Of a DNA stretch of 64,000 nt, positions 6,501 through 59,323 are shown piece by piece (the first letter of the stretch is position 1; the number at the start of each line of letters is the position of its first letter). The stretch spans positions 1,364,001 through 1,428,000 of the forward strand of contig NC_052033.1 of assembly GCF_015832195.1 (NCBI RefSeq), read 5' to 3'. The DNA comes from Motacilla alba alba. Its lineage: Eukaryota > Chordata > Aves > Passeriformes > Motacillidae. The translations under genes were made by a program, and so were the position numbers. The notes below the pieces were generated by a model. It worked only from the letters and a program-made list of their open reading frames with translations, was not told the DNA's origin and searched no databases.

Positions 6501-9500
6501 TCCCAGGTTCTCATTTCACTTTGTAGTGTGAAGAGGTGACAACCTCTCTCTGTTGGCACATCTGAAACACTTCTGTTCCCTTCTACCTCCCTGGTTCTGT
6601 TCTGACCTCTTGCTTTTCCTTTGCAGCATCTATGAAAAGCTGATCCAGTTTTGTTCCATTGATGAACTTGGTACAAATTATCCGAAGGTGAGGGGCAGTG
6701 CTTTGACTGGAAAAGGAGTGGGTAAAGGTAACACAGAGATGTAAAGTCTCACCTCAGGCTTTCTTGAGCCTGCTTGCTTAGAGGTCTTGTAATGCAACCT
6801 CAGTCTGAGCCTCTGCAGTGAAGTGAACATTTTTGTGTAGCACTAAGCCTCAGTGTCTCAACCTTTGCTACAATGATTCTGCACAAAAACTGCTGAAGTG
6901 TGGAGCTCTGAATGGAACTCCTTGAGGGGGGAAAGGAGCTGAGTAACAGAAAAATGCATGACTTACCCCTGCATCTTTTTTGCTTCAAAGCTGTTTCTTC
7001 ATTCACAACAGAACACGGTCCCATAATAGAAGGTCTGATGGGATACAGGAAGAAATCAGTCATGATGCTCATTGTCACCTCTGATTATCATCAGAGAACA
7101 GAAATACATGAAGCATTTTTGCACTGGGTTTTGTGTTTCTGTGGGAATAGCCATAATCTGGTTTATTTCTTTTTTTCAGGACATGTTTGATCCTCATGGC
7201 TGGTCAGAGGATTCATATTATGAGGCACTAGGTAATTCCAGGAAGTCTCTTTTTTATCCTAGCTTAGGTCTTTGTGGTTTGTACTTAATTAACTGCACTG
7301 GAGTTTTCACTTAATGTATAAATGAGAAATCATCACATGCTGCTCTTTAATGACTCCATTCTGGTTGGATGTGCCTGAATGTTATTGATGCTTCATCAGT
7401 TTGGAAAGGCTTTTTAAATTGGTTCTGCAATGTTTTCGTCTCTCAAATTACTAAATTAGTGCTGCAATGCTTTGATTAAAAAGCAGCAGTTGCTTTCATG
7501 GCAGTTTAATTTTTCTATATAGAATTTGAATATTTTTTTTTTTTATCATGGGAAGTGTGGGAATAAGAACTGTTGAGTTCTACTGTTCTTAGTGCTTCAC
7601 ATCTTTGCTCTTTCTCAGCTAAAGCCCAGAAGATCGAGATGGACAAACTGGAGAAGGCCAAGAAGGAACGCACAAAGGTACCTGCTCAAAACCTAAAGAG
7701 ATGCAGGTGCAGGGCTTTTGTTTCTTTCCCTGCTGGATTTCATTCTATTGCTTTGCTATTTCTGTGCTAAAACTGCTTGTTATATCCCAGATCTCTCCTT
7801 TCTTCTTGCATGTCTTTTCCCAAACTTCACAGATCAAGTTATTTGCTCTTCCTTATAGGTCCATTTATAGGTTGTTTATTCCACTGGATTTCCTGCTGTT
7901 TGTCAGTATTTTTAAACCAGAACTCTAAAAATGGCATTCAGTAAGTCAGATACAGGCAAGATAATGAATAAAGAGCAGCTTTTCCCTTAATTTATGACAT
8001 TTTGCCTGGTGCCTAGCCTAGTTAAAGCTTAATTTCCTCACCATGTCTCAGTGTGACACAATACCTGTTGTCTGTTCTCTGTGATATTAACTTGTTGCAT
8101 CCAATTTCCAGAAAAACCGGGTCTATTTTAACTTTGTGCATTTTGTGACAAGCCCAGTTATTCTTAGATATGCCCCAAAAAGAACAGAGAGGCTTTGGAA
8201 GAGATATCATTCCTGTCCTATGTTTCCTTTAAGCCAGTGGCTGGCATTAGAACCTGTCTAATGTTAGAGATTTGCCACCTAAGCTGCAGAAGGCTCCTTC
8301 CATCTCCAGTACATGGAGGGTTTTTCGTGCAGTGCATGCTGTGTCTTGCTGCTTGTTTTGGTTTTTTGCACAGTAACCCAGGTATCTGATCATGCCCTTG
8401 CCCAGATCTGCAGTTCTGAGGCTGCAGTGCTGTTGGAGCTCCTGTTGCCAGGGTTCCTGCTGTGGTGCAGCGCAATAAATTCTACAAGCAGGGACTTGCC
8501 TTGCATGTTCCTTAAAGGAAAATGAATATGAGCTTCTAACTATATAAATACAGAGTTAAATGACCAGGATCTGTCCTGTCTGAGCTGTATCAAATCTTGT
8601 GCTTGTACCAATAGACAAACACATTTATATTGTATCAGGCTTAGGAGCTGGGTTGCAGCTTAATTAATCCTTAATTCTCATGGCCTGAGGTCTGTGTCTT
8701 CCTTCCCACATGATGGGCAGCTCAGAGGCCAGTCCAGTGTCTTACATCACACTAAAACCGTTTTAAAAAAACTTAGAGAGGTGCTATGGGTTAAAAAAAG
8801 GTCTGTGTATCTTAACAATCCATTTTTTTATTTTCTACTCTTTCTCCCATGTGTTTCTCCCTTCCCAGATTGAATTTGTGACTGGCACTAAAAAGGGTAC
8901 AACGACAAGTGCTGCTTCCACAACCACCACAACATCCAGCACCACTGTGGGAGGTAAAGAACAGCTGTGAATGTACCCCTTAAGCTGCAGTAATGCTGGG
9001 ATTAGTGCTTCCTGAAACCTGAAGGCTCCCTTCTGATCCTGTAGATAATGCAAGGGAGTGTTTCTGCTGAGGAGTGTTGGACTAGCTTTCCTCTAGTCCC
9101 TGTAGTCCATGGCTGTCCTTCTGGAATGGAAGACTGGGGCCAGGTGGGATAGTGAAGAGACTTATTAGTGGGTCAAGAAGCCTGCTGCTGTCTGTGGTTG
9201 TAGAGTATTCCTGGGACTGCTAGATTTTGAGATTTGGAAACACTGGCAGTCATTCTCCTGCCTTGGAAACTGAGGGGAAGGGACAAAAACCAATGGAGGC
9301 CTGTAGCTGAGCAAGTGGGATACATGTGCTCTGTTGAAATAGAATCTGCTTTGGGGCAGGGAGTGATCCTGTCTCCCCTTTTGCTGGAGTTCAGGTCTAG
9401 AGTCCTGGTACCCCAAGAGAAAAGTTGCCTTTCCTCCTCAGTACTTACTGCCAGTCTATCCTGAAATTAGTGTAAGGGGAAGCTGTCTAGTCAAGCAGTG

Positions 9501-9778
9501 GGATATTAAGGATTGACAAGACAGAGTGTCAAGAAGGGATTGGTGACCTCCAGTGTAATGCTAATCCTTGTGTGCTTGGTTTAATCAAATTCACAGATGC
9601 CCAGAAGAGGAAGAGCAAGTGGGATTCTGCCATCCCCGTAACAACGATAGCTCAGCCCACCATCCTCACCACCACTGCAACCCTGCCAGGTGTTGTCACA
9701 GTGACAACCAGTGCCAGTGGCTCCAAAACCACGGTGATCTCAGCTGTGGGCACCATTGTAAAAAAGGCCAAGCAGTGA
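3597..9778 (+). CDS. SAP30BP: SAP30-binding protein (HCNGP family), 3' seven exons
   Basis: Exons are 3597-3673, 6082-6173, 6627-6687, 7180-7231, 7619-7677, 8869-8953 and 9597-9778 (TGA at 9776-9778). Each is bounded by AG/GT and the frame is continuous, giving about 202 residues; the human protein is about 308, so the N-terminal acidic third lies outside the window. The exons encode the HCNGP core: RVRNMSPDEIKIPPEPPGRC, then DMNYIIQRKKEFRNP, FDPHGWSEDSYYEAL and a lysine-rich helix. A Thr/Ser-rich stretch and the family's C-terminus VGTIVKKAKQ follow. The family is nuclear; SAP30BP is known as a SAP30/Sin3-HDAC-associated co-repressor and has been linked to splicing of short introns. Those roles come from family knowledge, not from this sequence. 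The opening codon is split with an upstream exon that is not in the window. Confidence 0.95.
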
Positions 9779-45995: not shown

Positions 45996-48900
45996 CTACA
46001 GGGGCAGAGCTTTTGCCCCTCCTGAGGGCTTGGTGAGGTAGAAAGTGGCTGTGCCACTGTATTTCTCCTGAAAAACAAGAGGAGCAGTTGAGGCTGGGGT
46101 TCTGGGGCTGGGGGATGCCAGAGCTGGGGGAAAGGCCCTGCTGGTCAGTTCCACACTCACTCTACCTCCACTCTTCACTTTAACTCCTGCTCATGTTTCC
46201 TCTCTCCCACCTCTGGCAGAGGCCAAAGGTCTCTCCTCATTTCTGACCCTCCTCTGCCCCTTCTTTCCCCCTCCCCCAGCCAGTTATAGGGTGCACCATG
46301 ATCTCACAGAGCAGCAAAATTATGCTCTCCCTTGTTCACAGGCCCCATGTCCCAACACCCTGATTCTGCTGGAATTTCCAGCTACCTGTGCACACCAAGG
46401 AGCTGAGTTAGGGAACACTGGTGATGGCACTGAGCTCTTTCCCAGGCTATAACTGCCACTGTTCAGCTCAGGAGTACCCAAGCTCAGCTCACATCACTTT
46501 TCTGTGGATGCATTTGGCCTTCCTGAAGCTCCCCCAGCACCTTTTCATTCCCTTGGTCCTGGGGCAGGGCTCTGTGACTGGCACAGTACGGAACTGCCTG
46601 CGAGAGCTCAGTGACATCAACAGACTCAGCGCCATGGATGGGCTCCACCAACCCCAAATGGCTCAGGAGCAACAGTTCAGCAGTGTCCCTGTGCTGTGCC
46701 CCGAGTGTTCCCTTGGCATCTTTCAGTCAGGCTCCCGGGGCTCTTCTGCCACGTACCTGGATGTGCTTCTGGGCTCTGTCTGCAGCCCCAGCCTCCAGCA
46801 GTGTCACCGTGCAGCCTCCAAAGCCTCCCCCGGTCATCCTGCTGCCATAAACCTCATCGACTTCCAGGGCTGCTGCCACCAGCTCATCCAGCTCCGGGCA
46901 GCTCACTTCATAGTCATCCCTGGAGAGAGGAGAGCCGTGCTCTGCCCTGTCCTGCACCCTGGGCACAACCACTGCACCCCTGACAGCTCCAGCTTGTGTC
47001 CTGGCGCAGCCACCGCCACGGCAGCGATGCTGAGAGCTGCAGAGCCTGGCCCAGCTCTGCTGAGAGGGGATCCTCGGTCACGCTCACCTCAGGGAGTTGT
47101 GGCTCTCCACCATCAGCCTCCCGAACGTGCTGTAGTCCCTGTGCTGCAGTGCCTCTGCTGCCTGTGCTGTCCGCGCTATCTCGCCGATGACGTGCCTGGC
47201 CCGCCGGAACACCTCATCCCCCAGGCAGCCCCTGGCGTCTGCAGAGACATTTGTGTCCCTGCAGCAAAGCCTCGCAGCCTGCAGGATGCTGCAGGGCTGC
47301 ATCCTGCAACCATCCTGTGCCAAAGCTCCTCCGCCTGCGGCATGCTCTGTCACAGGGTGTGTGCCCACCCGCCCGCCCCAGGTCAGCCCAGGGGGCACCA
47401 AGCTCTTGACGCCTCAAGGAGTGACCAGAGACGAGGGGGGCTGTCCCCACCTTCCAGCTCGGCCAGGGTGGCATCCCTGAGGCTGGCCTTGCCGAGAGTC
47501 GCCGCTGCCTCCTCGCACTGCCGCCGGCGCGTGGGGTACTCGCTGCCCGTCAGCGTGTGCCGCACGTTGGAGTTGGTGATGAGCACGGCCAGGCTGGCGT
47601 CGCTCAGCGGGACAAGCACGGTCTCCAGGGACCTGCAGGGACAGCTCAGCCATGTGCCCGCCCCTCTGCCCGCCCCGGCTCTCAGACGCCTGAGTTCAGG
47701 CAGATCCTGAACTACAGAGGCAAAGTCCAGGTGGCTTGGGATTTCATTCGAGCACTTCACTCCCTCCCAAATATTAGTTCCATAATAGACCCTAAGGACC
47801 GCGGGAAAGACAACCCAGGCGAGTAGCAGAAAGGTTGCAAGAGGAGGAATCAAGACCAGCAGGAATTCAAGTGCAGGCTGCCCCGCCCCCATGACGAGGT
47901 TTTGGGCTGGGTTCAAGGGTTAACCTCTCCCTGCACTCCTGCCCTTAGCTCGTGGCCACAGGGCCAGCTCAGCCCCAGCTGCTCAAGGAGGTGGGCACAG
48001 CACAGTGAGCTCAGCCACGACCCTGACCTGCAGTCGATGAGCAGCGCGTGGCCCTCCTGGCCCATCACGGATATGAACTGGTCCATGATCCCACAGGGCA
48101 TCCCAGCAAACGTGTGCTCCGCTTTCTGGCACACCAGTGCCTTGGCTACCAAATCCCCATTATCTGTGCCACAGCAGAGACATACAGGTTAGCAGCTCCT
48201 GCAGCTTTGTCCCTTGCCTGGGAGCAGGGGAAGCAAACATGGAGTTAAAGGGTTGTTTTCCCATGGAATGGGGTTTTGCAGCTGCAGGTGCTTGCTCCTG
48301 CACCACTGCACGGCCTCTATGCCAGCCTGGACCCCAGATCCAGCTGGATGTGATAACTGACACTGGTGTTTCAGGTATCTCGATTTTTGGGGCCATTAGG
48401 GTGGGGAGAGGATACTCCCAAGGGAACTTCCTATCATCCCCCTGGCCAGCCCCAGGAGTAGTCCATGGATTTTAGAGGTCTGGGCAGGTCAGGCTGGGTG
48501 AGCCAGAGGAGCCACACAGGCAGGGCAGTGCCAGCTGGGGAGTTGTTACCCACTCACAGCAGCGTTTTCCCAGGGGCTGTGGGATCTTGCTAAGGGCACC
48601 CCCCTCATCCCAGCTCCCACCTGGAAACAGATGCCAGGGCCCAGGATGGGCTGCTGCCTTACCAGGGCAGAGCTGCTGCAGGAAGGTGTAGGTAGCCACC
48701 TCCAGAGCAGCTGAGCTGGAGAGGCCCCCGCCCAGGGGGATGTCACTGGCCACGACAGCGCTGAAGCCTGGCACGGGACCACCTGCAGGAAGAGGAGAAG
48801 AGAAGGGAGGAGGGCGGGCATGAGCCCTTGCAGAGCTGTGTGTGCCCCACAGCTCACAGGGAATGGCACAAGGAGCCCCTGTGCAACATTTCAGAACACA

Positions 48901-50246
48901 GGGTGACCCACAGCAGAGTGTGACTCTGCAGCCCCCCAAGCACAGGGACTTTGGAGCCGAGATTGAGTTTGCTGGAGCCTGGTTCTGGCAGAGCTGCAGG
49001 ATTACACAGACACTAGAAGAGCCCCTGGAGCACTCCCAAAGCTGGATCTGAACACCAGTTCCCTGCAAGGGGGGGCTCTGACCCGCCCCTCAGCCCAGGC
49101 CTTACCCGGGTAGTGCTGGATGACGCCCTTGATGTAGTTGGCCCAGTGAGGCTGCCCCGGGCTCAGGGAGCTGCTGGGACGGGGAGCCAGGAACTGCACC
49201 CTGTGGGGCTCATCTGCCTCTGCCGAGGTGGTGACGATGGAGATGGTGTCATCCTGCGTGGGGGATCCCACCAGCACTGTCCCCAGCTGCAGGGCCTGGA
49301 GGTGGGGAAGGTGGGCTCAGACCCTGCAGCACCCCTTGGAGCATCTCCACGGATGGCAGGTGACAGCTGTGGCTGCTTCAGCCCACCCACAGCTGGAGCA
49401 TCCAAGGGCTCTCTTTAACCCCCCAGAGCCCCCACTGCACACTCCAGCTTGGCACAGAATTAAACTTCCTGCCTATTTACCGACCCACAGGGTCAGTCTT
49501 TCCACCAAAAGTTGTGCCTGACCCCCCAGCTCGGTGCCGGCTGCTGCCTGTTGGGCTCCGGGGGAGTGGTGACCACGTCAAGAATGGGAGAGGCTTCGGG
49601 AAGTTTCCTTGCCTGCCAGGGAATTCAGCTGACCTGCTCCCACGCTCCTCGCCCTCACAGTAATTAGCTGTAGGTTTGATTTAGGACTGAGTGGGGACTT
49701 CCCTCTGAGCCAAAGCGGCTCGGAAGGAGCAGGAAGCTCCTGCTGTTCTGAACCATCTCTGCCACCAAAACATCGCTCTCTGGGAACGGGAAGCTGTTTG
49801 ACGGGGCTGCAGAAAAAAACCTCTCGGAGGTGTATGGGTGTTTGTTCACACCCCGTGAAGCAGCGAGCAGTTGGTCTGCAGGGGGGGCTGCAGCAGGTCC
49901 GGCCCCGAACCCCGCGCTCCCCGGCAGGGGATCTCAGGGTCCTGGGTGGGTTTTCCTGGAGGGGACATCCCGGAACGGGGGTGGGAAGGCGGTGGCCAAG
50001 GACCCCCGGCGGCTGCCAGGAGGACCCGGAAGGGTGACACGGCGAGAGCCCGGGGCCGAGGCGGCAGAGCACGGCCCTTACCATGGGCAGCACGAAGCCA
50101 TCGTTGTAGTCGGTGTGCTCTCCGATGAGGTTGACCCGGCCGGGGGCCCAAGCTGCCAGCACGGCCGCACCCCCGAAAGCCTCTTCGTGCGCCCGGCGAG
50201 CGGCCGCCAGCAGCGGGGACGATACGGGCTCCGGCGGCTTCGCCAT
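45996..50246 (-). CDS. GALK1: Galactokinase 1, complete, 8 exons
   Basis: Cytosolic GHMP kinase that phosphorylates D-galactose with ATP in the Leloir pathway. In transcript order the exons are 50246-50082, 49295-49106, 48782-48663, 48163-48028, 47632-47451, 47238-47088, 46919-46757 and 46067-45996. They sum to 1179 nt, so 392 residues, equal to the human enzyme. All three family motifs are intact: the galactokinase signature [13 protein letters not shown], the ATP-binding loop [13 protein letters not shown] and the C-terminal glycine-rich [12 protein letters not shown]. The product ends KALPL. The start is the only ATG ahead of the signature and matches family length. The start codon lies 33 nt from a GC-rich minisatellite, and the gene is divergent from the RUN-PDZ-PTB gene. 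Confidence 0.96.
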
Positions 50247-50278
50247 GGCCGAGCTGCACCGCCCCGGATGGGTCCCGA

Positions 50279-50707
50279 ACCGCCCCCGAGAGCCCCGCAC
50301 CGCCCCCGAGGGCCCCGCACCGCCCCCGAGCGCCTCGCACCGCCCCCGAGCGCCTCGCACCGCCCCCGAGCGCACCGCACCGCCCCCGAGAGCCCCGCAC
50401 CGCCCCCGAGAGCACCGCACCGCACCGCCCCCGAGCGCCTCGCACCGCACCGCCCCAAGCACCCTGCACCGCCCCCGAGCGCCCCGCACCGCCCTCGAGA
50501 GCTCCGCACCGCCCCCGAGAGCACCGCCCCTCACCGCCCCCGAGAGCCCCGAACCGCCCTCGAGAGCCCCGCACCGCCCTCGAGAGCACCGCACCGCACC
50601 GCCCCCGAGAGCCCCGCACCGCCCCCGAGCGCCCCGCACCGCCCCCGAGAGCACCGCCCTGAGGGCACCGCCCCCGACAGCCCCGCACCGCCCCCGAGAG
50701 TACCGCA
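50279..50707. repeat. GC-rich 20-bp minisatellite upstream of GALK1
   Basis: About 20 imperfect copies of accgcccccgagagccccgc, with variant positions (gagcgcc, gagggcc, gagagca, ctcgaga). Extra ACCGC pentamers occur at three places, in total about 429 bp. It lies in the GALK1 5' UTR or proximal promoter, starting 33 nt before the start codon. On the GALK1 strand each unit carries a GGGGGCGG core resembling a GC box. A 20-bp unit is not a multiple of three and has few stops, so it creates long spurious open frames on both strands. Confidence 0.95.
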
Positions 50708-50815
50708 CCACCGCTTCTCACGGTCCCGGGAATCGCGGTTCGTGCGCATCCCGGACACGGCGAGCGCTCGCCCTCACACACCCCGTGTGTACCTGGCGGC
50801 GGGGCCAGCACCGAA

Positions 50816-51035
50816 GATTTATAACACATATATCCATATCCCAAAGCCTGTCCTAATACACGTAGAGATAAATACGTGTTTGTTTTGCACGTGTCTCATA
50901 TATGCAGGTTCTGTCTATGCAATGTATGGAATTTATATATCCGTACAGATCAATAGGTATGTGTGTCACTGTGTTACACCCACGTACATCAGCGTCTGAG
51001 CTTTCGTTTAAGTACACGTACACCTGTTTGTGCTT
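50816..51035. other. AT-rich island with repeated ACGT cores in divergent promoter
   Basis: About 220 bp of low-GC sequence between the minisatellite and the GC-rich 5' end of the RUN-PDZ-PTB gene. It contains repeated ACGT-centred words (acacgtag, atacgtgt, gcacgtgt, ccacgtac, acacgtacac). No known repeat or gene was recognised. Confidence 0.6.
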
Positions 51036-51091
51036 GTGAGGTTCCCCCCGCCCGTGGGGCCGGGCTGCTCCGCTCCGCTCCTGGGGCGGGG

Positions 51092-51136
51092 CCCGTTCCC
51101 GGTTCCCCGTTCCCGGTTCCCGGTTCCTGGTTCCCA
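51092..51136. repeat. Short GGTTCCC tandem repeat
   Basis: About six imperfect copies of a 7-mer cggttcc directly upstream of the RUN-PDZ-PTB gene start codon. Confidence 0.75.
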
Positions 51137-51183
51137 TCCAGCCGCCGTCGCGGGATCACCTGGCCCTGGGAGACGACGAGCCC

Positions 51184-54100
51184 ATGGCCAGGAAGGAGCC
51201 GCTGCTCAGCGCCCTTAAAGGTGAGCGTGGGCCCCCCGGCACCTGTGCGAGCTTCCCCCGGCAGCGCTTGGCCGCGCACCGGTACCGGTCTGACCGGACC
51301 GACGGCGGGGCCGCGCTGGGGCTCCCCGGGCCAGCCCCGCCGCCCGACCGTGGCTTTGAGGAAGTTTCCCGAGTTCCTGCCCAGCGCAGCGGCGGCAGCC
51401 GGGGAGGGCCGGGCCGGGCCGGGCCGGGGTGTCGGAACCCCCGCGGGGCCGTGCAGAGCTGTCCCCCCGGTACCCCTCCCCTTTCCCCGGCTGGGCACCC
51501 ACGGGTGCCGCCGCTCTCTCCTCCCCGCAGGAGGGGTGCTGCGGCTGCGGGAGGGCGGGGGCCCCTGCACGGACACCTCGCCGCACCTCGTGTCCCTCTG
51601 CCAGCTGCTGGAGAGCATCCTCCGCAAGGGGCTCCGACGTGAGTGACCCTTCGTGCCCGGGCGGGCGGTGGCAGCGTCCCCGGGCCCGCGGCGAGGGGTC
51701 TCGCACTCTCTTTCTCCCGCAGAACCGGCCTGGGGCTTCCGCAGGCGGGATTACTGGCACTGGCTGGAGCAGCTCCCCGCGGGGACCAGCGGCCGGTGAG
51801 CGCCCCCGAGCTAGACTGGGGTGAAAATCTGAGCTGTGGCGGTGTCTGTCGCGACATGCTCATCCCAAAGAGCCCAGGTGCAGGGAGGACGCTCCGGTGT
51901 GCTGCCAAAACTGCTTCCCCTCCCCATGAACAGGCCGGACCTTCTGTCCGTCAGCCTCCGGAGAGCCGCGGGCTGTGAGCGGACGCGGACGGCGCAGGGC
52001 CGCGGGCGGCACTTTCTGCGCTTGGCCCTGCAGGGGAAGGTGCTGGCGGTGGCCGTGAGGCAGCTGGCACAGACCCCCCGACTCCTGGAGGTGCGCACCT
52101 GGGGGGAGCTGCTACCCACGGGCGGTGGGCTGCGAAACGGAGGCGTAACCTGTTTTGTTTCACTGGCTTTCAGTTTTATGATCCAGGGAGCTCCATCCTC
52201 GGCAGTGAAGATCTCCGGGGTAAGATGGTGGCTCACCCGAGGCAGGATGCAGCCTGTGTTATGGCACTGCACTGCTGCTGCAGGGGAGGGGGAAGAGTCC
52301 ACTGTGATTTTTTTAATCCAAATTTAGTGCTGGAATCTAAATGCATTGCTGCAGTGATGGAAAAACAAACAAACAAACATATAAATATTTAAACATGATT
52401 TGAATCCATCTAAGGTTGGCTTTAGTGGCATGGGATAGGGAAATTTCTTCTGAAGTATCTTCCATGTTATTCATTTGCACCAAGGATTCTGGCTTAAGCA
52501 GACCCAGTCTGGCTTTGAGGGGAGGCCGTGTTGGATCGGCGTGGGCTGAGGGGTGGCACGGGGGCTTAAATGGCCTGTACATTGCCTTAACAGGCTGCAG
52601 CACTCCATCCATCCACAGCCAGGCTCCTTGGGGGGCCAGGCCAGGGTGGAAGCCTTTAATCTTTTGATTATGATAAATAACCCCATGTTAAAGCTGTACA
52701 TCAATGGTTTAGAAATCACCCGTGCTGCTGGTGCATGAGCAGATTGCAGACCTGGCAGTGTGATTGCAAGGCTTGTGTAGGAGAGCCTGGGCAGCTTTGC
52801 TGTGCTTCTAAGGGGAGAAATAGTCAGTAGCATTTGCTGCAATCTTTGTCTGAATTTTGGGAAAAAAGGTACCAAGCTGCACCTGTGCCAGCAGTGCGAG
52901 CCTGGGATGAGCCTCCAGCAGCACTTGGGTGCATGGTGCTGGGATGCTCTCAAGGCCTCACTCCCAGGACTCATCAGTTACACTGCAAATGGCTTTATTC
53001 TGTGCTCTGCCGTGCCCCTGTGAGGCTGTGGCTGCCAGGAGCCCTGCAGTGACACTGCCTCTCTCTCCATCCCCATCCCTCTGCAGAGCCTTTCCTCTCG
53101 CTGCTGCTGGTGCTGACAGAGATAGATTTCTCCCTGGACCTGCAGGTGCAGTGGTGAATCAGTGGGGTGGTGACCGGCACAGGGCTGCCAACGTGGGGCC
53201 CTGGCCCCTTCCCTGACAGGACCAATGGCGCTGACACTCCTTTGTTTGCAGAATTGCAGCTTCTTGGACGAGAGCTGGCTGCTGCCGGTAAGAGCCCTTC
53301 GCTCCCGGGAGCCGTCCTTCTGCCACCTGGCCCTCCCTGGAAAGTCAAATGAGGAAGATAAGGAACGGTTTGGTGGGGAGGGATTGCCATGCACCCCGGA
53401 GTGAATTGGCTCAGGCTCACCAGGATGAGCAGAGCTGCCTCTGCTATCGAGGTTGGATCCTGCTGGGTACCTGCAGCATCACCAGGACCAGATCTCAGCA
53501 TTCCCAGGAGTAAAACCAAGCAAGAGAAGCACCCAGGCCTGAATCTCTGATATAAGTGAAGTTTTCCCATGCTCCCTTCCCTGATTTCTTGCCAAAAAAA
53601 TCCCCATTTCCCTGGGCTGACACAGATTTCGCATCACTTGGTTTCGCTCTTGGTTTGCTCAGTGAAACATCAGTGTGTTATTGAGAACAGCAGGGATGCC
53701 TTCATGTCTTTTAACAACGAAGAGCATCCCTCCACCACCTTTTAAACCCAAAAGAATCCCCAAAAAGCTCGAGGCAGCTTTGGGACTGGCCAAGGCATGC
53801 ACTGAGCCGTGGTGCTGCTGCAGAGCCTGGGATGCCGCTGGCTTTGGGGCATTTCTGACAGCCAGTGCCCCCGGCAGGGCTGGCTGTGCTAATGCGATGT
53901 GACAGTGAGTGCTGCTGCAAACAGCAGCGCCTTTGGGGAGGGGCAGCTGCGTCCCCCGGCTGCGTGGGGACATGTGGGGTGAGGCAGGAGGGCTCTTCAA
54001 TGAGTTAAGGGTTTGCTGTTGCTTTGCCATCCCATCCATAGAGCAGCTTTGTCGCTTCAGGGTCTGGGCGCAGCCAAATCCTGAGAGAGGACAGAGACAA

Positions 54101-57100
54101 GCAGCCACTGATGGTCCCAGCTCAGCCTGGGGCACTGGGACTTGCCTCTCCCTGGGCTCCCGAAGCCCTGGGTTGGCATCGGTGCCAGAAATTATCCAGG
54201 GCATGGGGTCCCTTGGATGACCCACAGCCATTGCCACTGTCACCATCCACTCTCTTTCAGGTGTGCAGTACTTATGAGACAGTCCCGTGCCAAACACTGG
54301 GGATGGTGCTCAGGTAGGAACTCTTGATCCTCCTCTCTCCTCTCTAGAGGGATCTGGTCATCACAGCCCTGAAAATGCCCCAAAAAGGGAAATAAATATC
54401 CTGCTGAGAGCATTGGGTGCTTTTCTTCCAATCAGCTCAGCCTTCCCAGTATCTGCCGTCCATGAGGTGGCTTTTCCCTGCATGAAATGTCATGGATGGT
54501 ACAAAAGGGGAGCCAGGCAGGGTCCCCGGGGCTGAGCTGAAGCTTGGCTGCACCCCCAGGTACGTGGATGGCCGAGTCTTTGTCACCAAGGTGCTCCCCG
54601 AGAGCCAGGCAGAGGTGGACGAGGTGGTGCTGGCCGGTGACATCCTCGATGAGATCAACGGCTGCTCGCTGAGAGACGCCTCCCCCGGGCAGGTGGGTGG
54701 GGACAGAGGGCTGGGCTGTCCCCCTCTTCTGCCCCCTGCCACCCCTCTGCTCCTTGCTCCCTCTAGGCTGGGGCTGTGCTGCAGAGGCTGAAGGGACAAC
54801 CGCTCACCTTCCACCTGCTCCGGTGGCGGTGGCACGACGGGACGGTCTTTGAGCCGCTGCTGCCCTACCTGAAGGCCCTGAAGGAGAAGGAGCCCCACTT
54901 CCAGCTGCAGCGCAGCCCCCGGCACAGGGGCGAGGGGGAGCCCCGGCAGCTGCAGGGGGGCAGGTGGGTCTGTGCCATGGGCAGTGCCCAGGCTGGGCTG
55001 AGCGCCCTGGCACTGGGGTAGCCCTGTGCCCGCACCATCCCAGATCTCTGCTCGAGGCCGTGGGGCCAAGGCTGCCCCCATGGCCTGGAGGTGAGGAGGG
55101 GGAGGGGGCTGGGAGCATCTTCCCCTGCAAAGAGCAGCAGGAGGAATGTGTGGGGTCCTTCCTCTGATGCCCCCGAGCCCTTTGCTCCCCAGGCTGCTCT
55201 ACAACCTGCGGTTCCTGGGCCAGACCAGCGTTGGGACGGTGAGGCTGTGGGGCAGAGACCTGCCGGGGGTGAATCACCTGCTCTGGAGTTCTTTTCATGT
55301 GTCCAAGGGTGATTCCCTCCTTCCCATTCCATTTCAGTATGGTGGCAAAGAGGTGCTGGAGGGGGCCATCCCTGCCGTGCTGGAGAAGAACTTGGCAGCA
55401 CGGGTGAGCAACAGGGCTGGGGACATCCTGGGAAGGGCTCTGTGAGAGAATGCAGGCCATGGATATTTTTTCCAGCTCCAGGTTCACTTGGCTTGGCTGA
55501 ATATTTGCCACCCCATCACCCCTGTGGGGTTTTTTCAGGTCAGAAGCATCTCGGCAGCCAGGATAGGAAAGGACATTAAGGAAAAAATTCAACCGCGTGC
55601 AGGAAAGCACTTGGAAAACTCTGGAAAGGCTAAGCCTGATTCCAGAGGTGCTTTAGGTCACTGTTGTTTGAGCCTCTGGGGGTTGTTTGTGAAGAGATTG
55701 AAGTGTGGAAGCACTGGGTGGTGGGGAAAAAGGGGCAGCAGAGAGAAAACTTGAAAAAGCTGAGGCTGACTGTGCTTCATCACCTCTGCATTTGGATAAT
55801 CCCTGGTGAGTGTCTGATTAGAAACACAGCTCAGGGCTGTGCTGATCGGGGCTTCTTCCCCCTCATCTCCCCTGCAGGAGGTTTTATTGGATGTGAAGGA
55901 GGCAGAAGTCCTTGTGCAGGAGAAGGCTTCTTCCAAGGTGACTGAGTGACATCCGAGGTCTGGGAATCTGGTGGCATGGGGAGCCCAGCTGGAGGGGTCC
56001 TGGGGACAGAATAAACCAGGAACCACAGCCCCGAACGCCGGCCCCTTCCTGTCCCCTGCACAGCTCCTGGGCCGCCATCCCTACCCCTCCATCTCCTGCG
56101 TGGGACGCTGCACGTGGAGCCCCAGGATCTTCGCCTTCTGTGTGGTGTGAGCGCTGCCTGTGGGCCCTGGCAGGGGCACGGAGGGATGTGGCTCTGGGAA
56201 AACCTCTGAGCGAGGTCCGGAGCAGCCGCAGGGGCCCTGCTGCGGTGGGAGGCAGGGCTGGGCTCGGAGCTCGGCTGGATAATGGACGTGTTTCCATTTT
56301 TAGCTCTTCCCCCGAGAGCCCTGATGGGAGCACGTTTGACTGCCTGGTGTTTGCATCCAGTTCTGAGCAAGAATGCGAGGAAATCGTCAAGAGAATCGGT
56401 AAGGGGAGGGTTTATGGCTTCAGCTAGCATCAGTCACACCGTGGAATACCAGGAATTCTGTTCCGGTCCACCACATGCAGGATCTGACTTAATTCCTTTT
56501 GCTGAGGTTACTAAGATGATGAGATATTTCGGTATTTTTCTGGTGTGGGTTTGTTTTTAAGGACCACTAGACAATGATTTTATTTTAAGAAACAGCTTCT
56601 AGGCATACCCAGCTGCTTCATTGTTTCCAGTAAGGACTTGGAGGAAATACCGTTTTCAAGGGATGTTATTTTAAACATACTTCTCTTGCAGGAGCTGAGG
56701 CTGCTACTGCAGCTCAGCACCAAACCAAGCATTCACAAAAAAACCCCTATGACTTGGAATTTTTCATTTGCAATTGGCCTAAATGCAAGCTGTGTGGCTC
56801 TTCCTGGATTACATGGGCCACTGAGGATCCTCAGATTTCGGTGGGGACATTCCTGGCAAGCAGTGTCCCTGGAGAGACCTGCCCAGGTGATTGACCTGAG
56901 ATGACTGAGCCTCAGCTGAAGTTTGAACCGGTGCTTAACTTCGTGGCTCAGTTGTGAACCTAATTACTTTGTATCAAAGGAATCTTTTCCCCTACAGCTT
57001 TAGCGAGGAGAATAAGAAAATACTTGTATCAAACCTATCATTTCAGAACAGGATTTTGGCAGGACTCCGCTGAGAGCCGGGGGCTGGGTGTGCTCGGAGC

Positions 57101-57208
57101 AGCGTAGGACAGGGAGGGGAGGAGAAGGAGGAGGCTGTGTGTGAAGGTGGGTGAGCAGTGCCTGTTCCTCCAGCTACAGGGTTTAAGCACACCGAGTGGT
57201 TTGTCTGA
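51184..57208 (+). CDS. RUN-PDZ-PTB multidomain protein, 16 exons, no recognised name
   Basis: Exons: 51184-51220, 51531-51638, 51723-51795, 51934-52090, 52174-52219, 53087-53145, 53252-53287, 54261-54313, 54560-54692, 54767-54963, 55193-55238, 55338-55403, 55878-55937, 56064-56146, 56304-56398, 57174-57208. They sum to 1284 nt, in frame, for 427 residues. Residues about 15-172 look like a RUN domain: SLCQLLESILRKGL, DYWHWLEQL, the family core GRGRHFLRLALQGK, then LLLVLTEIDFSLDLQ. Residues about 175-258 look like PDZ: TLGMVLRYVDGRVFVTKVLP, then AGDILDEINGCSLRD. Residues about 300-425 look like PTB/PID: LLYNLRFLGQTSVGT, then HPYPSISCVGRC and FDCLVFASSSEQECEEI. The C-terminus is TEWFV. RUN domains often bind small GTPases and PTB domains bind NPxY peptides or lipids, so a membrane or trafficking adaptor is inferred. 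The first and last exons are the least certain: the frame is open without ATG back to a stop at 51037. Confidence 0.8.

Positions 57209-58746: not shown

Positions 58747-59323
<577 letters not shown>

Follow-up and report, generated by a model that had tools for sequence, protein, structure and literature searches.

Between GALK1 and H3-3B, the window (the whole stretch of 64,000 nucleotides of Motacilla alba alba DNA that was analysed) carries what its sequence indicates is almost certainly a real and intact protein gene, belonging to a family that is equally real. The predicted product joins a RUN, a PDZ and a PTB domain in one chain. The reading that we favour, and consider somewhat better than even, is that of an old, intact gene of three modules, whose product would be an endosomal adaptor connecting receptor tails to GTPase-marked membrane through partners that we infer.

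Structure of the gene

The earlier note on this DNA had claimed sixteen splice-bounded exons joining in frame to 427 codons, and they do (Table 1). All 15 introns between positions 51184 and 57208 of the plus strand have a GT donor and an AG acceptor, the phases agree across all of them, and the 16 joined exons give 1284 nucleotides, that is 427 codons and a TGA. A seven-base repeat, GTTCCCG, occurs in about six copies at 51095-51135 and ends 48 bases 5' of the start codon. Rfam and tRNA scans of the whole window were empty.

Table 1. Positions in the window of the gene and its neighbours
Feature	Position	Strand	Content	Basis
GALK1	46730..50246 (low end approximate)	-	start codon at 50246	Pfam galactokinase signature 7.9e-18
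Exon 1	51184..51220	+	start codon, residues 1-13	MARKEPLL.. start common to relatives
Exon 2	51531..51638	+	RUN	exon joining, exon-wise alignment
Exon 3	51723..51795	+	RUN	exon joining, exon-wise alignment
Exon 4	51934..52090	+	RUN, with QGRGR..LR basic block inside	alignment, residue counts
Exon 5	52174..52219	+	RUN	exon joining, exon-wise alignment
Exon 6	53087..53145	+	end of RUN	exon joining, exon-wise alignment
Exon 7	53252..53287	+	linker NCSFLDESWLLP, highly conserved	alignment, conservation profile
Exon 8	54261..54313	+	start of PDZ, XLGM carboxylate-loop motif	alignment
Exon 9	54560..54692	+	PDZ	Pfam, alignment
Exon 10	54767..54963	+	end of PDZ, helix, variable linker	predicted structure, alignment
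Exon 11	55193..55238	+	PTB strand 1	predicted structure, alignment
Exon 12	55338..55403	+	PTB helix 1	predicted structure, alignment
Exon 13	55878..55937	+	PTB	predicted structure, alignment
Exon 14	56064..56146	+	PTB	predicted structure, alignment
Exon 15	56304..56398	+	PTB, most of last helix	predicted structure, alignment
Exon 16	57174..57208	+	end of helix, C-terminal tail GFKHTEWFV, stop	conservation, alignment
Possible polyadenylation signal AATAAA	57409..57414	+	201 bases 3' of stop	motif match only
Histone H3.3 gene (H3-3B by position), coding part	58750..59314	-		Pfam

Domains of the product

The order RUN, PDZ, PTB, proposed in the earlier note for checking against Pfam profiles, holds in profile matches of the window protein and of its relatives, and in the predicted folds. 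The RUN profile scores 53.4 bits against a cut-off of 22. PDZ (22.4 bits against 23.2) and PTB/PID (18.0 against 20.9) lie just below their cut-offs in the window copy; among the 45 relatives, at E <= 0.01, RUN is matched in all 45, PDZ in 44 and PID in 27, which makes PTB a weak assignment where sequence is taken by itself. Structure models agree with RUN, PDZ and PTB folds. The RUN assignment is thus carried by a score above the curated cut-off, and those of PDZ and PTB by profile and predicted fold together. An NCBIfam scan of two proteins gave a single match, in one of them and far below its cut-off. When the bird's own 1.07 Gb assembly was searched with the RUN-family profile, there were 20 matches and none on the contig of the window, because the RUN domain of this gene is split across small exons.

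Relatives and age of the family

The 427-residue protein was compared with 5.8 billion proteins, the 7996 candidates sharing most words with it being scored. At E <= 0.001, 369 proteins match. The top one (E = 2.1e-258) covers 98% of the query at 92% identity, and 118 of the best 120 carry a source name. The sources among the matches listed are birds, squamates, a turtle, an alligator, caecilians, salamanders, frogs, lungfish, a coelacanth, a sturgeon, sharks and rays. A second search, with a doubled query, covered lengths of about 478 to 1520 residues and again scored the 7996 candidates with most words in common; its 21 matches are all named and all vertebrate. In a third, restricted to lengths of about 123 to 392 residues, there were 101 matches, all of them shown, of which 89 are named. 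These two altered-length searches (21 and 101 matches) added teleost relatives. Cyclostomes and invertebrates are absent among the named matches listed, the best 120 of the 369 being filled by full-length vertebrate proteins. The great age suggested in the earlier note stands, with relatives from sharks to birds.

Identity of the window protein to the other members of an 18-sequence alignment is 54-84%. All 16 exons align to six chosen relatives (owl, emu, skink, newt, shark and coelacanth). Against the owl protein, identity per exon is 69-100%, with one gap and one insertion of a single residue each, both in exon 3; even of the 10 whole codons of exon 16, 8 to 10 are matched in the six. Larger insertions or deletions were seen in exon 1 of the newt and in exons 5-6 of the coelacanth model.

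Might the exons have been chained by chance, or be what is left of a gene that in this bird is decaying or no longer coding? The evidence from this bird is all genomic DNA, and two of its three domains score just under the Pfam cut-offs. However, the frame is open through 16 exons, the splice sites are intact, the invariant residues are kept, and identity is 84% over 100% of the length to owl and 92% over 98% to jay, which makes a remnant scarcely credible. Both a chance exon chain and a pseudogene were rejected in view of the intact frame and splice sites, the 369 matches and the exon-wise alignment.

Public databases already contain the gene: in many genomes it is a locus that has been predicted but not characterised. 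Most entries are called "uncharacterized protein LOC...", "hypothetical protein" or si:ch211-250n8.1. Named orthologue entries are LOC417372 in chicken, si:ch211-250n8.1 in fish and shark, and LOC100486003 in Xenopus tropicalis; similarity across all exons places the window gene in this si:ch211-250n8.1/LOC417372 group. Two family members bear other database names, RUFY4 (Varanus, P0079) and tensin-like C1 phosphatase (Pelobates, P0135), which look like wrong transfers. Two entries labelled "lgn", P0051 (423 residues, contig of 1545 bases) and P0101 (429 residues, contig of 1486 bases), hold an unbroken coding chain; we infer that they are transcripts, since in genomic DNA introns would break up the chain. 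P0051, which is chicken-like, and the chicken protein P0114 begin with MGAALPLYPTMPPIGAV.. where other birds have MARKEPLLSALKGGV..; this is perhaps an alternative first exon. A literature search that took in neither preprints nor most subscription journals found no published description of the gene, and the main text of a paper on domain shuffling (PMC11788884) has "PDZ" once and none of "RUN", "PID" and "PTB".

Genomic neighbourhood

The place of the gene between GALK1 and H3-3B, as the earlier note had it, is confirmed by both neighbours, which lie on the minus strand. GALK1 and the window gene are arranged head to head, and 937 bases separate their start codons; this gap contains a GC-rich minisatellite with a 20-base unit in about 21 copies (50256-50709). 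Farther out there is an integrin beta gene with a Calx-beta domain (Pfam integrin beta 1.1e-10, Calx-beta 9.1e-8), which we take to be ITGB4. Two further neighbours were identified by eye on pieces where Pfam had no match: a SAP30BP-like exon at about 9491-9775, and, from about 63.4 kb (63440 onward), the beginning of UNK, where the peptide QPEKPQHYTY is common to the croaker protein P0131. A human chromosome 17 list from 2011 covering one amplified region, as excerpted from PMC3041991, runs SAP30BP, ITGB4, GALK1, H3F3B, UNK. Apart from the gene after GALK1, the order in the bird window is that of this excerpt.

The models of croaker (P0131) and sturgeon (P0208) fuse window-gene sequence to sequence of Unkempt (UNK). 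The fusions are probably gene-model read-through into the neighbour, and because of them the same neighbourhood is suggested in fish, from these two fused models only.

Mammals

The protein sources (ncbi, uniref and nr) presumably include mammalian proteins. No mammal was found among the 118 named proteins in the best 120 of the 369 matches, in which frogs and sharks appear at 53-57% identity, nor among the 21 matches of about 478 to 1520 residues, nor among the 89 named matches of about 123 to 392 residues. The excerpted 2011 human list of one amplified region has nothing between GALK1 and H3F3B (PMC3041991), in agreement with the statement of the earlier note that this human interval lacks a protein gene. 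Judging from the protein searches and the human gene list, the gene has likely been lost in mammals.

An orthologue might, of course, exist in mammals and have been missed, being GC-rich, unassembled, moved or fast-evolving. The GC content of 0.73 across 51001-52000 would suit this, as would the scope of the searches: the best 120 of 369 matches were listed, scoring was confined to the 7996 candidates with most words in common, and the third search was limited in length. Against it stand the absence of mammals from 118, 21 and 89 named matches listed, with frogs and sharks present at 53-57%, and the empty interval in the excerpted human list (PMC3041991). We consider a missed orthologue very unlikely, and loss in mammals is the reading kept below.

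Conserved sites

The most conserved stretch of the protein lies outside the domain cores, in residues 161-182 (N[CS]SFLDESWLLPV..), which link RUN to PDZ. Its mean majority frequency is 0.889, and 14 of its 22 columns reach at least 0.95; the corresponding means elsewhere are 0.717 for RUN, 0.807 for PDZ and 0.680 for PTB. This linker, NCSFLDESWLLPV (window 53252-53287 and the start of exon 8), thus combines top conservation with no assigned domain. It may be a putative binding site of its own.

Small GTPases are common partners of RUN domains, and a basic patch is kept in the RUN domain of the family. In PLEKHM1, H60, R117, R119 and R123 are important in Arl8b binding, according to excerpts of PMC5379943. 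We placed these residues on the RUN profile alignment by hand, matching residue spacing, and they fall on residues 45, 96, 98 and 102 of the window family in owl numbering. Among the 45 relatives, residue 45 is K in 42 and R in 3, residue 96 is R in 39, K in 4 and H in 2, and residues 98 and 102 are R in all; hence the four positions are basic in 45 of 45. In RUFY1, R206 and R208, within the motif RxRAWL, are needed for Arl8b binding (PMC9597352, in excerpt). RUFY3 likewise has an RxR block on the profile alignment, yet its Arl8b site is stated, in the same excerpts, to be outside RUN (PMC9597352), so the block is no proof of Arl8 binding. The patch is suggestive only of small-GTPase binding; an Arl8-type GTPase would be the first candidate for the partner of RUN, though an unlikely one.

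At the other end of the protein, the hydrophobic tail TEWFV is kept in alignments from sharks and rays to birds. The ending GF[KR]HTxxxV is found in 115 of 217 collected proteins, being exactly GFKHTEWFV in 101. Among the rest are short models and fragments, and also six of the 45 aligned relatives, whose ends are altogether different. Because of them no tail column reaches 95%; these six deviant ends are presumably gene-model errors. By comparison with PSD-95, one position of the PDZ helix would select the ligand and is presumably hydrophobic in class II domains; the commonest forms of the family carry N, S or P there, which counts against such a domain. By its residues TEWFV looks like a PDZ ligand: its final V and the W two positions earlier fit the hydrophobic-X-hydrophobic pattern of class II ligands given in excerpts of PMC2891790. 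The same excerpts describe NHERF-1, X11alpha and tamalin as closing their own PDZ domains with their own tails (PMC2891790). In our model pLDDT is below 50 at tail residues 422-427, which neither supports nor opposes docking. By analogy with these proteins, the tail might dock into its own PDZ, a possibility that we regard as rather doubtful.

Possible function

What might such a protein do? RUN would dock on an active small GTPase at the membrane of an endosome or lysosome, with Arl8-type as the first candidate. In predicted models the PTB domain is nearest in fold to those of LDLRAP1, Fe65, Numb and AIDA1; since these nearest types are those of endocytic adaptors, NPxY/F-type tails of membrane receptors are the expected ligands, and PTB would hold them. 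The ligand of PDZ would be a peptide at a C-terminus. It might be the class II-like tail (W-F-V) of the protein itself, in which case a closed state or chains of molecules would result. The protein would then tie receptor cargo to a GTPase-marked vesicle, as an endosomal adaptor possibly self-inhibited through its tail. That it is an adaptor between a GTPase and a receptor tail we give an even chance. The full combination, a membrane-traffic adaptor of jawed vertebrates with a domain design not known from mammals, in which RUN reads an Arl8-type GTPase on lysosomes, PTB holds NPxY tails, TEWFV closes PDZ as a switch and mammals have lost the branch, is quite improbable as a whole.

Another potential role is that of a cortical or junctional scaffold, whose PDZ and PTB would bind adhesion receptors and whose RUN would bind Rap, Rab or a motor and not Arl8. 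The RUN fold is also near those of RUFY3 (Rap2-interacting protein X), NESCA, RUSC2 (Rab35 complex) and Rab6IP1 (Rab6 complex), and the PDZ is near those of PATJ and ZO-1 in sequence, all of which would agree with a scaffold. It is harder to reconcile with the four positions that PLEKHM1 needs for Arl8b, all kept basic, and with a PTB nearest to endocytic-type adaptors; we think a scaffold possible but on the unlikely side, and prefer the endosomal adaptor.

If correct, fish, frogs, reptiles and birds have a conserved adaptor of signalling or traffic that is absent from mammals, overlooked since the field works mostly in mammals, and mammal-based maps of endolysosomal sorting would be without this adaptor branch. 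The gene would be a testable case of the loss of a trafficking connector, and its role is directly accessible in zebrafish or chicken.

Comparison with known systems

Closest to the window gene are the entries LOC417372, si:ch211-250n8.1 and LOC100486003, which share with it a full-length match, the three domains and, in most aligned members, the tail; they are predicted and unnamed, with no function in the literature searched. Other RUN proteins, such as PLEKHM1, PLEKHM2/SKIP, RUFY1 and FYCO1, pair RUN with PH, FYVE, a coiled coil or a zinc finger; to our knowledge, none of these effectors has a PDZ or PTB domain. RUFY proteins combine RUN with a C-terminal FYVE zinc finger, and PLEKHM proteins combine it with a PH domain. 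Pfam scans of the window protein and 45 relatives gave neither a FYVE nor a PH match, and membership in RUFY and in PLEKHM was rejected. Likewise, we know of no RUN or PDZ in the PTB adaptors LDLRAP1 (ARH), GULP1, Numb and Fe65.

The X11/Mint (APBA) proteins are alike in having PTB and PDZ in one chain and, as excerpted from PMC2891790, a tail able to occupy PDZ. They differ in arrangement: in X11alpha the PTB is central and two PDZ domains come after it, whereas the window protein has RUN, one PDZ and a C-terminal PTB, and membership was rejected on this order and number. The combination of three domains is unlike that of every named family compared, and the protein is an adaptor made from common docking modules.
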